From a virus, in IMG/VR virus record IMGVR_UViG_3300047455_000097, positions 1 to 33,191 of that record: DNA of 33,191 bases, one strand, 5' to 3'. The position numbers and the translations under genes were made by a program. The notes under the pieces were generated by a model, which saw only the letters and a list, made by a program, of their open reading frames with translations, made no database searches and was not told where the DNA came from. Shown in pieces: positions 3,147-21,277 of the stretch (positions are counted from its first letter, which is position 1; each line of letters starts with the position of its first letter).

Positions 3147-3881
3147 ATGATACATTATCACGGAACACCAATAGGTGGTTCACTGGACGAGGCGCAGAGA
3201 TTTATGCCTGGAAGACACTGCTTAGTTAGTTATCATCATCCGCACCAGTTAGAATCTGTTGTTGAGTTATGTCAAAGCTTTTGTTTAGACAATGGTGCAT
3301 TTTCTTTTTGGCGGTCTGGTAAAGGCGAAGTTGATTTCTATGGATATCACGAGTGGGTTCATAAGTTAGCCGGTCACCCATGTTTAGATTTTTGCCTTAT
3401 TCCTGACAAAATAGATGGAACTGTAGAACAAAATGACGAATTGGTAAGCAAATGGCTAAGAGTAGGGTCTGAAGTTGAATCTGCGCCGGTTTATCATTTG
3501 CATGAACCGTTAGATTACCTTGAATATTTAGTAGCAAACTTTAGGACAGTTGCGCTTGGTTCTAGCGGCCAGTATTCTCAGCCAAACACAAAAAATTGGT
3601 GGATAAGGATGGCGCAAGTTATGGAAACGGCATGTGACAACATTGGCAGACCAAAGGCAAGATTACATGGTCTACGAATGCTTGACCCGCAAGTGTTTTC
3701 TAGACTCCCGCTCTCAAGTGCTGACAGCACAAACGCCGCAGTAAATAGTGGGGCAATAAGCAGTTATGGGAGTTACGTTCCGCCAAGTAGGCACATGCGT
3801 GCTGCTGTTATAGCTGACAGAGTCGAGCAATTTAATAGTTCGTCTAAATGGCAATCATTCCAACAAGAACAGCTTTTCTAG
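3147..3881 (+). CDS. TGT/DpdA-like DNA guanine transglycosylase
   Basis: Predicted 244-residue protein resembling the tRNA-guanine transglycosylase superfamily, and within it the phage DpdA proteins that exchange guanine in DNA for a 7-deazaguanine. Supporting motifs are LDNGAF at 47-52 (equivalent to the TGT DSGGF block; Asp48 as general acid/base), VALGSSG at 135-141 (position of the TGT GGLAVGE segment), then LHGLRML at 173-179, and SSADSTNA at 190-197, where Asp193 would be the nucleophile. It lacks the C-terminal Cys3His zinc site of tRNA enzymes, as expected for divergent DpdA types. It precedes the cytosine methyltransferase, fitting a DNA-modification cassette. No preQ0 synthesis genes are present, so precursor would have to come from the host. 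Assignment is by motif reading only. Confidence 0.6.
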   Translation: MIHYHGTPIGGSLDEAQRFMPGRHCLVSYHHPHQLESVVELCQSFCLDNGAFSFWRSGKGEVDFYGYHEWVHKLAGHPCLDFCLIPDKIDGTVEQNDELVSKWLRVGSEVESAPVYHLHEPLDYLEYLVANFRTVALGSSGQYSQPNTKNWWIRMAQVMETACDNIGRPKARLHGLRMLDPQVFSRLPLSSADSTNAAVNSGAISSYGSYVPPSRHMRAAVIADRVEQFNSSSKWQSFQQEQLF

Positions 3882-3891
3882 GGGAGATAAA

Positions 3892-4983
3892 ATGTGGATA
3901 TTACCAAAGAATTACCAACTGTCATCAGCTTTTGCAGCGGATATGGTGGCATCGAAAGAGGACTTGACCTTGCAGGGGTTGAACATCGCGTCATCGCTTA
4001 TGTGGAGATCGAAGCCTTCGCCGTTGCGAACTTGGTTAACAAGATGGAAAGAGGACTCTTACCTCCCGCACCTATATACACGGATATTAAAACCTTCCCA
4101 GCGGAAATCTTTCGAGACAGAGTTGACATTGTTACTGGAGGCTACCCTTGTCAACCGTTCAGTAAAGCCGGTAGCAGAAAAGGCGAAGACGATCCAAGAC
4201 ATCTCTGGCCGTTCATTAGAAGGCACTTGCAATCAATTAGACCTCTTCAATGCTTCTTTGAAAATGTCGAAGGACACATCTCGCTTGGACTACCCAGCGT
4301 CATCAGCGACTTGGAAGAAGATGGTTACAGCACAACGTGGGGAATATTCTCAGCGCGTGAAGTCGGCGCTCCTCACCAAAGAAAGCGAGTCTTTATCATG
4401 GGCAACGCCCAACACGATGGATCATCTGACTGCGAAAAGCCCAGAGACATTGATAAGACAATCTCAAACTGTACGCAAGGGCAGGACCAGGCCGTCAAAT
4501 CTAAGAGAGCAAGTAGACCCGGTGGCGATGCAGATTTATCAAGGGGAGTGGCCGGAAGCGACAGTGTTCGATGTGACGGGAGGAGGGTATCCCACGGAAT
4601 TGGTGAACGGGAAGTGGAGATCGAAGCACAGCAAGGATCAGGACAGCCCTTGGTACGGAGCGAAGCTGAAGGATGCAGTGGAGAAAGCGGAGACAATGTG
4701 GCCGACACCGACAACCCAAGACAACATCCAGGTTGCGGGTCAATACAAGAACCCGAAGTCAGGAACTACATTGGGGGGAGCGGTGAGGAATTGGCCGACA
4801 CCGAGAGCCTCAGAGTACAAGGATTGTGGTCCAATAGGGAGCAAGAGCCACGCTCACCAAAAAAAGAAATACTACCTGTCAGCGGAGGCGAAAGAAGAAT
4901 CGATGCCTCGTGGCCAACTGAACCCAGCGTGGGTAGAGTGGTTGATGGGTGTCCCGACAGGGTGGACAGAATTAGACTTTTAG
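3892..4983 (+). CDS. Overprinted reading frame inside the methyltransferase gene (WPTP-repeat protein)
   Basis: A 363-codon frame lies wholly within the methyltransferase gene except for its first two bases, two positions out of phase. Its ATG (3892) and the methyltransferase GTG (3894) interlock as ATGTG behind one GGGGAG site. The product is basic. It carries SLKMSKDTS, TWKKMVTAQRGEYSQRVKSA, WATP near 173, WPTPTTQDN near 270, WPTPRASEYKD near 301, and a C-terminal LNPAWVEWLMGVPTGWTELD. I recall phage and bacterial hypothetical proteins with the same beginning (MWILPK) and the same WPTP and LNPxWVEWLMG motifs. Such families could be real dual-coding proteins, or shadows conserved only because the methyltransferase is conserved. 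Function unknown. Confidence 0.45.
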   Translation: MWILPKNYQLSSAFAADMVASKEDLTLQGLNIASSLMWRSKPSPLRTWLTRWKEDSYLPHLYTRILKPSQRKSFETELTLLLEATLVNRSVKPVAEKAKTIQDISGRSLEGTCNQLDLFNASLKMSKDTSRLDYPASSATWKKMVTAQRGEYSQRVKSALLTKESESLSWATPNTMDHLTAKSPETLIRQSQTVRKGRTRPSNLREQVDPVAMQIYQGEWPEATVFDVTGGGYPTELVNGKWRSKHSKDQDSPWYGAKLKDAVEKAETMWPTPTTQDNIQVAGQYKNPKSGTTLGGAVRNWPTPRASEYKDCGPIGSKSHAHQKKKYYLSAEAKEESMPRGQLNPAWVEWLMGVPTGWTELDF

Positions 4984-5063
4984 GCAATGCTGTCGTACCC
5001 AAGACTGCTGCAAAAGCATGGATTACTTTAAGCAATAGGTATAAAAATGAGCAAGGGCAGTAA
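3894..5063 (+). CDS. DNA (cytosine-5) methyltransferase
   Basis: Predicted 389-residue C5-cytosine methyltransferase acting on phage DNA, probably to evade restriction. The canonical motifs are present in order: motif I FCSGYGGIERGL (13-24, SAM binding), motif IV GGYPCQPFS (82-90, catalytic Cys86), motif VI ENV (123-125), motif VIII QRKRVFIMG (162-170), and the C-terminal RIRL/LGNAVVP (359-369, motifs IX-X). The variable region between about 175 and 340 would hold target recognition. It is unusually rich in Gly, Ser, Asp and Glu and repeats ADT-containing phrases, as do other phage enzymes of this type. Start is GTG, overlapping the ATG of the second frame. No cognate nuclease is present, so it appears to be an orphan enzyme. 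Confidence 0.93.
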   Translation: MDITKELPTVISFCSGYGGIERGLDLAGVEHRVIAYVEIEAFAVANLVNKMERGLLPPAPIYTDIKTFPAEIFRDRVDIVTGGYPCQPFSKAGSRKGEDDPRHLWPFIRRHLQSIRPLQCFFENVEGHISLGLPSVISDLEEDGYSTTWGIFSAREVGAPHQRKRVFIMGNAQHDGSSDCEKPRDIDKTISNCTQGQDQAVKSKRASRPGGDADLSRGVAGSDSVRCDGRRVSHGIGEREVEIEAQQGSGQPLVRSEAEGCSGESGDNVADTDNPRQHPGCGSIQEPEVRNYIGGSGEELADTESLRVQGLWSNREQEPRSPKKEILPVSGGERRIDASWPTEPSVGRVVDGCPDRVDRIRLLGNAVVPKTAAKAWITLSNRYKNEQGQ

Positions 5064-17184: not shown

Positions 17185-18678
17185 ATGGGTATTTTTGATC
17201 GATTTAAGCCGAAGAAAGAGCCTAAGACTAAGATATTCAAGCGGGCTTATGCGGCAAACAACCAAGGGTATCTGTTTAGCGACTTTAAGCCTTCAGAGTC
17301 TAGCGCAGATACAGAATTAAGACCTGCACTGCGTAATTTGCGGGCCAGGTCCAGAGATTTAGCAAGAAATAACGAGTATGTTCGTAGATATCTAGATTTA
17401 TTACGCAACAATGTTGTCGGTGATAAGGGATTTAACATACAAAGCAAGGCTTACGATTCTGTTGGTAAACTAGATACAGACGGAAATCAGCGAGTAGAAA
17501 CTGCGTTTAAGTCGTGGGGCATGCTCGGAAATTGCACTGTAGACGGTAAAATGACCTGGATTGACGCTCAAAAGCTTGCAATTGAGTGTTTAGCCCGTGA
17601 TGGCGAAGTATTTATCATCAAACATCGAGGAGCATCGTTCAAAGATTCGTTTTCTATTGAATTTATTGAGCCTGATCAGGTTGATGAGCAAAAAAACGAG
17701 CGTTTGACTAACGGAAATGAGATTCGCATGGGTGTTGAACTAGATAAGTTCAAAAAGCCTGTTGCATATCATGTTCTAAGCTATCATCCCGGTGATTACG
17801 ACTACACAACAACCGGGAAGTCAACAAAACACATCAGAATTACTGCTGACCGGGTTATTCACCTGTTTAAGGCTAATAGAGCCGGTCAAACCAGGGGAGA
17901 GCCTTGGTTATCGTCTAGTATCTCTGCTTTGAAGCAGTTAGGCGCGCTAAGAGAGGCCGCAATTGTAAATGCGCGTATTGGCGCATCTAAAATGGGCTTT
18001 TTCACCTCTCCGAGTGGAGATGGATTCGTTGCAGACGAACTTGATGGCAATATGCCTATCATGGACGCTAGTCCAGGTACGTTTCATCAGCTTCCAAACG
18101 GAGTAGATTTTAAGTCCTTTGACCCGCAGTATCCGAACAATGAGTTTGACCCGTTCCACAAATCAGTCCTAAGAGGCATTTCTGTGGCTATGGGTGTTGG
18201 CTATCCAACATTGTCTGGTGATCTTGAGGCTACCAGCTACAGTTCTATCAGGCAGGGCGCGCTAGAGGAGAGGGATAACTACAAAAACCTACAGCAGTTT
18301 ATGGTCGATCACTTTGTTTGTCCTATATTCGGTAGTTGGTTAGGCAGTGCAATGGAATTAAACACCTTTGGCATCCCTGTTAGACAGTTTGATAGATTCT
18401 ATACAGCGGCTCATATTCGCGGCAGAGCCTGGTCTTGGGTTGACCCGCAGAAAGAGATGGCTGCTGCTGTGAACGGCCTTAAAAACGGCATTCTGAGCCT
18501 TCAGGACGTTGCCTCGCAGTACGGCAAGGATGTTGAAGAGTTAGTCTCGCAAATTGCTAGAGACAAAGACACTGCCGAGCAGTTCGGAATCAAGTACGCG
18601 CTTGAGCCGTTTGGTGCAAACTTTAATGCTGTTAATCCTGATATAATTGGTGAAGATGATGCCGAAGTACAAGGGTAA
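17185..18678 (+). CDS. Portal protein, lambda family
   Basis: Predicted 497-residue subunit of the dodecameric portal that forms the DNA entry channel. It has the usual lambda-family N-terminus (MGIFDRFKPKKEPK), the RPALRNLRARSRDLARNNEYVRRYLDLL helix, the NVVGDKGFNIQ strand, EFIEPDQVDE, DRVIHLFKANRAGQTRGEPW, and the GDLEATSYSSIRQGALEE stem segment. Length and order match the gpB family. It follows the gpW-like gene with no gap and overlaps the capsid polyprotein start by 20 bases. The acidic last residues (IIGEDDAEVQG) are encoded in the overlap. Confidence 0.95.
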   Translation: MGIFDRFKPKKEPKTKIFKRAYAANNQGYLFSDFKPSESSADTELRPALRNLRARSRDLARNNEYVRRYLDLLRNNVVGDKGFNIQSKAYDSVGKLDTDGNQRVETAFKSWGMLGNCTVDGKMTWIDAQKLAIECLARDGEVFIIKHRGASFKDSFSIEFIEPDQVDEQKNERLTNGNEIRMGVELDKFKKPVAYHVLSYHPGDYDYTTTGKSTKHIRITADRVIHLFKANRAGQTRGEPWLSSSISALKQLGALREAAIVNARIGASKMGFFTSPSGDGFVADELDGNMPIMDASPGTFHQLPNGVDFKSFDPQYPNNEFDPFHKSVLRGISVAMGVGYPTLSGDLEATSYSSIRQGALEERDNYKNLQQFMVDHFVCPIFGSWLGSAMELNTFGIPVRQFDRFYTAAHIRGRAWSWVDPQKEMAAAVNGLKNGILSLQDVASQYGKDVEELVSQIARDKDTAEQFGIKYALEPFGANFNAVNPDIIGEDDAEVQG

Positions 18679-21277
18679 AGACATAAACACCCGTCCGACT
18701 GATGGCATGGTTTCAGAGGCTAAGAAGGGATTAGCTTGGCGCAAAGAGCATGGTAGAGGTGGCACAGAAGTTGGTGTAGCCCGTGCTAGAGATATACAGA
18801 ACCGCAAAGAGTTGTCTTTCAGTACTGTTAAGAGAATGTATTCGTTTTTCTCTCGGCATGAAGTAGACAAAAAAGCCGAGGGGTTTAGCCCTGGAGAAGA
18901 GGGTTATCCTTCTGCTGGCAGAATAGCTTGGGCTTTGTGGGGTGGAGATGCTGGATTTTCGTGGTCACGAAGAATCGCTGGTCAGCTTGATGATGATAGA
19001 TCAATGGAACGAGCAGAAGTTAGTGGTGGTGTACGAAAGGCGTTAGAGAAAAAGGTAACTGATCACAATGAAAAGGTTGGTGATGCAGCAAGTAAGAGAA
19101 CCAGCCTACGAACTTTAGAAGCAGTATTTAGACGAGGTATTGGTGCATATAAAACTAATCCTCAGTCAGTAAGACCTACTGTAAAGTCTCCAGAGCAATG
19201 GGCATACGCGAGAGTAAATAGTTTTTTGTATGTTTTGCGTAATGGTAAATTTAGAAGCGGTAAGCACGATGTTGATCTCTTACCTAAAGAACATCCAATG
19301 TCGAGTAAGGATCGGGCAGTGGACGAACAAGTAGACCTTGAGGCGTTTATTATGAGTGAAGAAGTGGAAGCCAACGTCCATATTGCTGAAGACACTGGCG
19401 AAAGACATATTAAAAACATAGCAGAAACAGATGATTCTTATGTGGTTACTTATGCTAAGGTCGATGATGAAGAATCTGAACCCGAAGTAGAAGTAGAAGA
19501 AACAGACAGGTCATCTACTGTTGAAGTACAGCATAGAGCGATGGAGATGGATATGTCTCCAATCGATGAGGATAAGAGAACCGTAAGAATCGCCATATCT
19601 AGCGAAGAGCCGGTAGAGCGATCTTTTGGTAGCGAAATATTAGACCATGACTCAAAGGCAATTGATTTGTCTTTCCTGTCTAGTGGTCGAGCGCCTTTGC
19701 TTTTGGATCACGATCCAGAGAAGCAGATTGGCGTTGTAGAATCGGTAGAACTTGATGGGCAAGCGCGTAGACTGCGCGCTAAAGTTCGCTTTGGAAAAGG
19801 CGAGTTGGCTCGTGAGGCATTCTCTGATGTTGTTGATGGAATTAAGGCTAACATTTCTGTTGGCTACTCTATCGGCAAGATGGACCGGGATAGAAATGAC
19901 AAAAACACATATCGTGCAACGTCATGGAAACCCGTGGAAGCAAGTTTGGTGTCTATACCTGCCGATATGACAGTTGGCGTTGGACGGTCGAGCGAACCTT
20001 CAAACAAACCCGTAATCAAAACTTCATTTGTTGAGGAAAATACTATGTCAGAAGTTGATATTGAAGCGGTCAAGGCTGAAGCACAGCAAACCGCACAACG
20101 TAACGCCGCTCAGATTGTTGAGTTAGGCTCTCGTCACAACCAAGGTGAAATGGCTCGTAAGGCAATTGCTGAAGGCCGTAGCATCGAAGAGTTCCGTGGT
20201 GAGTTACTAGAAAACATTGGTTCACAGCGCGCCCTGGAAGATCAGGAAGTGGGAATGACCAATCAAGAAGTTAAGAAGTTTAGCCTGGCCCGTGCAGTAA
20301 ATGCTCTTGCTAACCCAACTGATCGCCGCGCTCAAGAAGCTGCTGCGTTTGAGTTTGAGTGTTCACGAGCTGCTGCTGACCAGTACGGAACAACTGCACA
20401 GGGCATTATGCTTCCTGCTGAAGTTCTGCGTACTTGGAAGCGTGACATGAACAGCGGTGATGACTCTGCTTTGTTCAGTGATGACTTCCGTGGCGGTGAC
20501 TTCATTGACGCACTTCGCAACCAGTCTTCTGTAATGCAAGCTGGCGCTCGTATGCTGGGCGGACTTAGCGGTGACGTTAAGATTCCTAAGAAAACTGCTG
20601 CTTCTACTGCTGCTTGGATTGGCACTGAAGGTGGTGACGCAACTGAAAGCGAAATGACTGTAGGTCAGGTGTCTTTGGCTCCTAAGACTCTCGGTGCATT
20701 CACTGACGTTACTCGCCAGCTTTTGATTCAGTCTAGCCTAGACGTTGAAGGTCTGATCCGTGATGACTTGAGCCGCGCTCTTGCTATCGCAATCGACAAA
20801 GCAGGTCTGGAAGGCACTGGTTCTTCTGGTCAGCCTACTGGTATCTTGAATCAGACTGGTGTTAACCAGGTAACTAACTTCGCGGCGGCTAACCCCACTT
20901 TTGCTGAAGTTGTTACTTTGGAGACTGCTGTTGCAGAAGACAACGCTCTTCAGGGCAACCTGTCTTACATCATGCCTGCTTCTATGTACGGCGCTCTGAA
21001 GACTACTGAGAAGGCCTCTGGAACTGCTCAGTTTGTTGTAGAGCCAGGCGGAAGCATCAACGGCTATCGTGGTATCGTTTCCAATCAGGCTACTGCCGGA
21101 AACCTTTACTTTGGTAACTTTGATGATCTGCTGATCGGTATGTTTGGTGGACTTGATCTTACTGTTGATCCATATACTATGTCTAAGAGCGGTACTATCC
21201 GCCTGGTTGCTTTGCAGTCAGTAGATATGGCTGTGCGTCACGCTGTAAGCTTCGCCTTCGGCAACGATGGTGCATAA
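18659..21277 (+). CDS. Protease-capsid polyprotein: two accessory domains, prohead protease and major capsid protein
   Basis: One uninterrupted frame of 872 residues joins four parts. Residues 1-108 are a domain with GLAWRKEHGRGGTEVGVARARD and AGRIAWALWGGDAG, seen in many phages. Residues about 126-217 fit DUF5824 (DHNEKVGDAASKRTSLR, ARVNSFLYVLRNGKF, DLLPKEHPMSSK). After an acidic linker comes an HK97-type prohead protease (about 300-455) with catalytic His351 in LLLDHD and Ser400 in ISVGYSI. From about 463 the HK97-fold major capsid protein follows. The start could also be the ATG at 18656; both overlap the portal. Maturation cleavage probably separates the parts. An internal start is listed separately. 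Confidence 0.85.
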   Translation: MPKYKGKDINTRPTDGMVSEAKKGLAWRKEHGRGGTEVGVARARDIQNRKELSFSTVKRMYSFFSRHEVDKKAEGFSPGEEGYPSAGRIAWALWGGDAGFSWSRRIAGQLDDDRSMERAEVSGGVRKALEKKVTDHNEKVGDAASKRTSLRTLEAVFRRGIGAYKTNPQSVRPTVKSPEQWAYARVNSFLYVLRNGKFRSGKHDVDLLPKEHPMSSKDRAVDEQVDLEAFIMSEEVEANVHIAEDTGERHIKNIAETDDSYVVTYAKVDDEESEPEVEVEETDRSSTVEVQHRAMEMDMSPIDEDKRTVRIAISSEEPVERSFGSEILDHDSKAIDLSFLSSGRAPLLLDHDPEKQIGVVESVELDGQARRLRAKVRFGKGELAREAFSDVVDGIKANISVGYSIGKMDRDRNDKNTYRATSWKPVEASLVSIPADMTVGVGRSSEPSNKPVIKTSFVEENTMSEVDIEAVKAEAQQTAQRNAAQIVELGSRHNQGEMARKAIAEGRSIEEFRGELLENIGSQRALEDQEVGMTNQEVKKFSLARAVNALANPTDRRAQEAAAFEFECSRAAADQYGTTAQGIMLPAEVLRTWKRDMNSGDDSALFSDDFRGGDFIDALRNQSSVMQAGARMLGGLSGDVKIPKKTAASTAAWIGTEGGDATESEMTVGQVSLAPKTLGAFTDVTRQLLIQSSLDVEGLIRDDLSRALAIAIDKAGLEGTGSSGQPTGILNQTGVNQVTNFAAANPTFAEVVTLETAVAEDNALQGNLSYIMPASMYGALKTTEKASGTAQFVVEPGGSINGYRGIVSNQATAGNLYFGNFDDLLIGMFGGLDLTVDPYTMSKSGTIRLVALQSVDMAVRHAVSFAFGNDGA
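20045..21277 (+). CDS. Major capsid protein, possible internal translation start
   Basis: The capsid part of the polyprotein begins MSEVDIEAVKAEAQQ at an in-frame ATG preceded by GAGGAAAA (20033-20040), a good ribosome site, so a 410-residue capsid precursor could be made alone, in addition to the long form. Its first 70 residues are helical and charged like an HK97 delta domain. The body has the E-loop and A-domain-like stretches of HK97 capsids (KKTAASTAAWIGTEGG, SLAPKTLGAFTDVTRQLL, GQPTGILNQ, SVDMAVRHAVSF). Independent initiation would supply the large excess of capsid subunits over protease that an HK97-type shell needs. Confidence 0.65.
   Translation: MSEVDIEAVKAEAQQTAQRNAAQIVELGSRHNQGEMARKAIAEGRSIEEFRGELLENIGSQRALEDQEVGMTNQEVKKFSLARAVNALANPTDRRAQEAAAFEFECSRAAADQYGTTAQGIMLPAEVLRTWKRDMNSGDDSALFSDDFRGGDFIDALRNQSSVMQAGARMLGGLSGDVKIPKKTAASTAAWIGTEGGDATESEMTVGQVSLAPKTLGAFTDVTRQLLIQSSLDVEGLIRDDLSRALAIAIDKAGLEGTGSSGQPTGILNQTGVNQVTNFAAANPTFAEVVTLETAVAEDNALQGNLSYIMPASMYGALKTTEKASGTAQFVVEPGGSINGYRGIVSNQATAGNLYFGNFDDLLIGMFGGLDLTVDPYTMSKSGTIRLVALQSVDMAVRHAVSFAFGNDGA

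Follow-up and report, generated by a model that had tools for sequence, protein, structure and literature searches.

M.EaeI is one C5-methyltransferase made as two polypeptides, and M.EcoHK31I is another, with a smaller polypeptide of about 176 aa. Lee et al. are said to have described, in 1995, that the smaller M.EcoHK31I gene lies in an alternate frame within the larger. The methyltransferases of Bacillus phages SPR, SPbeta, phi3T and H2 are multispecific, with tandem TRDs of about 40 aa each. The motifs of M.EcoHK31I are divided such that I-VIII, X and the predicted TRD are on the larger subunit and the smaller has motif IX only, while in M.AquI the split falls inside the variable region and the small subunit carries IX and X (PMC3404938). 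Multispecific Bacillus phage methyltransferases also appear by title among the works cited in PMC8936443 and PMC12707154.

The stretch of DNA analysed here (33,191 nt, called the window; IMGVR_UViG_3300047455_000097) is a fragment of a tailed phage and includes genes for Erf, YqaJ exonuclease, terminase and capsid. At 18647-21277, an 876-aa ORF matches both the prohead protease (S78) and the phage capsid families and is thus a protease-capsid fusion. The locus under study very probably codes for a single cytosine-C5 DNA methyltransferase whose two polypeptides are read from overlapping frames, in the manner of M.EcoHK31I. The two frames, termed alpha and beta, and their parts are as follows:

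3881..3886, + strand: GGGGAG, Shine-Dalgarno-like site common to both starts
3892..3896, + strand: interlocked starts ATGTG (beta ATG 3892, alpha GTG 3894, base G3894 common to both)
3892..4983, + strand: beta, ATG frame, 363 codons (363 aa); proposed TRD and motif IX subunit with an N-terminal extension over the catalytic domain
3892..4233, + strand: beta N-terminal extension, aa 1-114 (MWILPKN...), conserved
4399..4698, + strand: putative beta TRD module WATPNTMDHL..., aa 170-269; may be two modules, with an internal WPEA
4699..4791, + strand: putative beta TRD module WPTPTTQDN..., aa 270-300
4792..4911, + strand: putative beta TRD module WPTPRASEYKD..., aa 301-340
4918..4974, + strand: beta motif IX-like LNPAWVEWLMGVPTGWTEL, aa 343-361; alpha four-fold third-base difference only 0.07 here
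3894..5063, + strand: alpha, GTG frame, 389 codons (389 aa); C5-methyltransferase large domain (PF00145), motifs I-VIII and X
3894..4412, + strand: alpha catalytic domain, aa 1-173; CSGYGG motif I, GGYPCQPFS motif IV, ENV motif VI, QRKRVFI motif VIII
4419..4958, + strand: alpha linker, aa 176-355; unconstrained, predicted disordered, pLDDT mostly <50, 24% identity
4977..5000, + strand: alpha motif X, LLGNAVVP; invariant columns

The original prediction was of a 363-codon second frame open within the methyltransferase gene, with starts at ATG 3892 and GTG 3894 that share bases, and the sequence confirms it. The same is true of the single GGGGAG behind both starts, which lies 5 nt from the beta ATG and 7 nt from the alpha GTG and overlaps the stop of the upstream gene (3879-3881). 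The locus had also been called fully nested and dual-coding; the dual coding stands, on the recoding and selection results below, while strict nesting does not, since beta begins 2 nt before alpha and ends 80 nt before the alpha stop, and the genes are therefore overlapping. The arrangement had been expected to recur, and it does: beta is open in related loci, and among 86 loci the start is ATGTG in 81, GTGTG in 2, TTGTG in 2 and ATGAT in 1, so that NTGTG is found in 85/86. AGG/GGA-rich motifs occur at the same position in nearly all relatives. In 30 of 63 loci, no ATG, GTG or TTG other than this GTG is available to alpha after the upstream stop and before motif I. Conservation of the GTG is in part due to beta, whose ATG TGG (Met-Trp) fixes it; in the distant locus C75C1, beta Trp2 is lost and alpha starts at another ATG, upstream. 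Compared with M.EcoHK31I, the window beta overlaps alpha from its very start (ATGTG) and is 363 aa long against about 176 aa. The upstream gene itself (3147-3881) ends 10 nt before ATGTG and is DpdA-like, with a match to phrog_887 queuine tRNA-ribosyltransferase (E 9e-62); a second DNA-modification function may therefore adjoin the methyltransferase.

Homologous DNA yields some shadow similarity in other frames, and beta could in principle be a chance shadow of the methyltransferase. A recoding test was employed in which the alpha protein was fixed and the gene was recoded by 20,000 within-gene synonymous shuffles and 20,000 codon-usage resamplings. On average, 10.7 stops appeared in the beta frame per shuffle and 16 per resampling, and in neither set was a single recoding free of stops (0/20,000, twice). 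The third frame at the window locus has 25 stops across the span of beta. IMG/VR was scanned with alpha or beta as query, which returned overlapping locus sets, and loci retrieved by the alpha query, blind to beta, are alike in beta openness. Across 92 distinct loci of 30-95% identity, which as metagenomic loci are not independent of one another, beta is essentially full-length open with L005 as the sole exception; the set includes C75C1 (30% identity) and the window itself, and about 80 are full-length and of the window type. The third frame in these 92 loci usually has 10-34 stops. In the window type, the N-terminal halves of beta have an identity of 0.63, where 0.29 would be expected with alpha alone kept; this is double the shadow expectation. 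On the recoding, the openness across loci and this identity, the chance shadow was rejected, and we give it practically no credence.

Beta-frame stops occur in a few loci, namely L005 and L170. In L170 (1142-1963, a Blastopirellula contig), beta has a stop followed by an ATG one codon on (T*KMQLELFG), at the position where the short betas of other phages begin. From this locus, beta may consist of an extension and a core.

Protein-level selection acts on both frames, and the constraint switches frame by domain. Pairwise differences at four-fold third bases of alpha are 0.27 over aa 1-170, 0.30 over aa 171-337 and 0.07 over aa 338-361, and rise to 0.60 beyond the beta stop. For the Paenibacillus type, whose beta has a later start, the differences are 0.69 and 0.71 ahead of beta, drop to 0.36-0.47 within its span and are 0.66 once it has ended. 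Synonymous constraint thus follows the boundaries of beta, which also speaks against a chance shadow. Overlap-aware dN/dS was obtained from 69 sequences by simple counts, with some saturation and a gap-rich alignment in the variable region. Over aa 176-338 the values are 1.04 for alpha, 0.16 for beta and 2.13 for the third-frame control; over aa 340-361 they are 0.53, 0.31 and 1.10; and alpha has 0.17 in its tail beyond beta. Over aa 3-170 they are 0.26 for alpha, 1.44 for the control and 0.59 for beta, the last being weak by itself, as NN/NS is biased by alpha codon-position effects that can lower the N-terminal beta value. Because of this bias, the case for N-terminal beta constraint is made by the third-base and identity tests. 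By region, therefore, the constraint on alpha falls at the catalytic domain and that on beta at the expected place of the target-recognition region. Three checks had been proposed with the original prediction, and all came out in favour of a real second gene: second-frame stops are not frequent in the 92 loci, synonymous change is lowered under the overlap and higher past beta, and dN/dS is below 1 in beta and above 1 in the third-frame control.

Alpha matches PF00145 with an E of 1.3e-32, over profile positions 2-167 of 324 only. Its aa 1-173 are confident in the AF2 model, as is the second half of the helix 356-388, and the PCQ and ENV columns are invariant in the alpha alignment. The model aligns to M.HhaI with a Z of 20 over 196/327 residues and spans both ends, which corresponds to the large domain. 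Alpha therefore has the catalytic large domain of a C5-methyltransferase, with motifs I, IV (PCQ), VI (ENV), VIII and X. Neither a TRD nor motif IX was found in alpha itself: aa 176-355 are disordered, with dN/dS of 1.04, and the motif IX model matches the beta frame.

Beta matched no Pfam family, and its profile gave no usable match among solved structures (best E 0.16, an unrelated ribosomal protein). It matches phrog_1008 in two places (E 8e-21), and several small PHROGs match its C-terminus. The N-terminal extension is missing from short betas, such as those of Paenibacillus phages. At the end of beta, LNPAWVEWLMGVPTGWTEL has the pattern LNPxWVEWLMGxPxGWT, which we take to resemble motif IX of C5-methyltransferases. 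The AF2 model of beta alone has a mean pLDDT of 54.7, too poor for interpretation, which is expected if beta folds only together with alpha. In mycobacteriophage Rita, LLPTP repeats, LAPAFSEWMMGWPAGW and IIGNGVVPQ are all in a single frame; the Pfam match on this fused enzyme stops short of motif IX and therefore gives no profile-level proof of that motif. From motif pattern, position, fused homologues and the bookkeeping of motifs described next, with no fold match, beta appears to be the carrier of the TRD and motif IX, and the coherent second-frame motifs that had been placed at the target-recognition region of the methyltransferase are supported as such.

A motif IX HMM, seeded with pattern matches from the alpha and beta frames only, was used to classify 282 unique loci; it took the place of an earlier motif-pattern classification that left 103 loci unassigned. 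Motif IX was found in 252 unique loci, in beta in 234, in alpha in 18 and in both in none. Of the 234 loci with motif IX in beta, 233 have no beta-frame stop between motifs VIII and IX; of the 18 with it in alpha, only 1 has an open beta frame. In most of the other 30 loci of the 282, alpha stops soon after motif VIII and beta runs on, often into motif X. Some actinophages (the tandem class) and L139 have an alpha that ends beyond motif VIII, and their motif X is in beta; in L139 (2196-3084), which is window-type, the truncated alpha is accompanied by a beta with motifs IX and X, LLLNPNFVEALMG...LCGNGVVPQ. Whether a version is nested, tandem or fused, none of the motifs found occurs in both frames, which is the chief reason for taking alpha and beta to be parts of a single enzyme.

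The same counts bear on whether beta is a real overprinted protein with a function of its own, such as an anti-restriction or regulatory partner, and alpha a complete, if unusual, methyltransferase. Such a protein would be compatible with selection on both frames and with the lack of a recognisable Pfam domain in beta alone. However, alpha is without motif IX or an ordered TRD and beta has a motif IX-like sequence; motif IX is in one frame or the other and never in both; motif X shifts to beta where alpha is short; and single-frame fusions exist. A separate protein is accordingly very unlikely. The overprinting originally proposed was right as to real dual coding, while the idea of an unrelated overprinted protein fits poorly with the distribution of motifs, and the nature of the second protein had been missed.

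Ribosomal frameshifting could instead join motifs I-VIII of alpha to the TRD and motif IX of beta in a single chain. The actinophage tandem class needs one +1 shift near motif VIII to give a full enzyme, and the fused versions show that single chains exist. The common class, however, has motif X back in alpha and would therefore need two shifts, beta keeps its own start beside that of alpha and its frame is conserved from codon one, and no slippery site near motif VIII was noticed by eye. We regard frameshifting as very unlikely. One split enzyme is the simplest explanation, because beta appears to carry the TRD modules and motif IX that alpha lacks.

We infer that alpha and beta are translated and assemble into an active enzyme, with target sites and a biological role along the following lines. 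Alpha would supply the AdoMet-binding and catalytic large domain (motifs I-VIII and X), and its stretch between motifs VIII and X would be a linker needing only openness. Beta would supply the small domain, an array of TRD modules followed by motif IX. One ribosome-binding site before both starts would allow the two subunits to be made together. As a heterodimer, the two would methylate phage DNA, with the beta modules determining the sites and protection from host restriction as the probable purpose. The anti-restriction role is a reasonable inference, and none of the neighbouring genes examined was recognisable as that of a restriction enzyme.

Between motifs VIII and IX, beta in the 234 loci has 0-6 units opening with [WYFL]xTP, with a median length of 39 aa; the 538 units in total fall into 110 clusters. 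One module type recurs at varied positions and beside varied neighbours. Over the final 450 nt of the catalytic domain, L050 and L078 share 99.6% identity, yet they have 0 modules in common. In another pair, L255 and L260 (99.1%), the first cassette is replaced, and in L362 and L379 (98.7%) one cassette was gained or lost. The WPTPRASEYKDCGP module of the window has a near-repeat in L362, whose backbone is distant. These backbone pairs suggest that cassettes have recently been exchanged in the frame expected to determine specificity. Beta thus holds several exchangeable tandem modules, as a multi-TRD enzyme would, and each unit is presumably a site-recognising TRD. On balance we favour the wider reading of a widespread phage two-subunit methyltransferase whose specificity comes from an interchangeable cassette array in one frame and whose catalytic subunit is in the other, so that recombination swaps would re-target methylation. 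If this is true, cassettes are swapped though each must stay open in both frames, and the catalytic subunit is left unchanged.

Set against the described enzymes, the locus is like M.EcoHK31I, by sequence motifs alone, in having I-VIII and X on a large chain and IX on a second. It differs in that the TRD modules are apparently in beta, whereas the predicted TRD of M.EcoHK31I is on the larger subunit, and in being phage-borne, with cassette exchange and no restriction enzyme recognised alongside. M.AquI is likewise a split C5-methyltransferase, naturally so, and only L139 and the actinophage tandem class resemble its division. The SPR, SPbeta, phi3T and H2 enzymes are similar in having tandem TRDs in a phage enzyme (median 39 aa here), a likeness of arrangement and length only; they are single-chain and single-frame, whereas the cassettes here are on a second polypeptide in a second frame. 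What is unusual here is the overlap from the first codon with interlocked starts, the wide spread and the swapping of cassettes between near-identical backbones.

Hundreds of other phages share the arrangement. It was found in phages or plasmids of Acinetobacter, Lacticaseibacillus, Paenibacillus, Escherichia, Leptospira and Sphingomonas, and also in genome contigs assigned to Bacteroidota, Verrucomicrobiota, Planctomycetes and others. Nested pairs are annotated in RefSeq without comment, e.g., Paenibacillus phage Jacopo gp56 and gp57, and two such methyltransferase genes are listed for P. larvae phages (PMC6070908). Both frames have been labelled DNA methyltransferase in databases (phrog_1008, Jacopo gp56/gp57, mycobacteriophage Firecracker gp6/gp5). 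In the open-licence literature, no account was found of phage dual-frame C5-methyltransferases or of an explanation for the annotated pairs. On a Sphingomonas plasmid (L160:599-1690), the annotated protein coordinates are those of the beta frame and the alpha frame is unannotated. Annotation of one gene per stretch keeps one frame, apparently beta alone on the Sphingomonas plasmid and alpha alone in most phage records, and half of the enzyme is therefore missed.

The locus is a case of long dual coding with strong comparative support, in which the reason for the overlap would be clear, namely complementary domains of one enzyme with constraint switching at the domain border. With fused, nested and tandem versions in existence, how overlapping genes arise and are resolved can be tested directly. 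The cassette swaps suggest a route by which phages may change their methylation targets and so escape host restriction.
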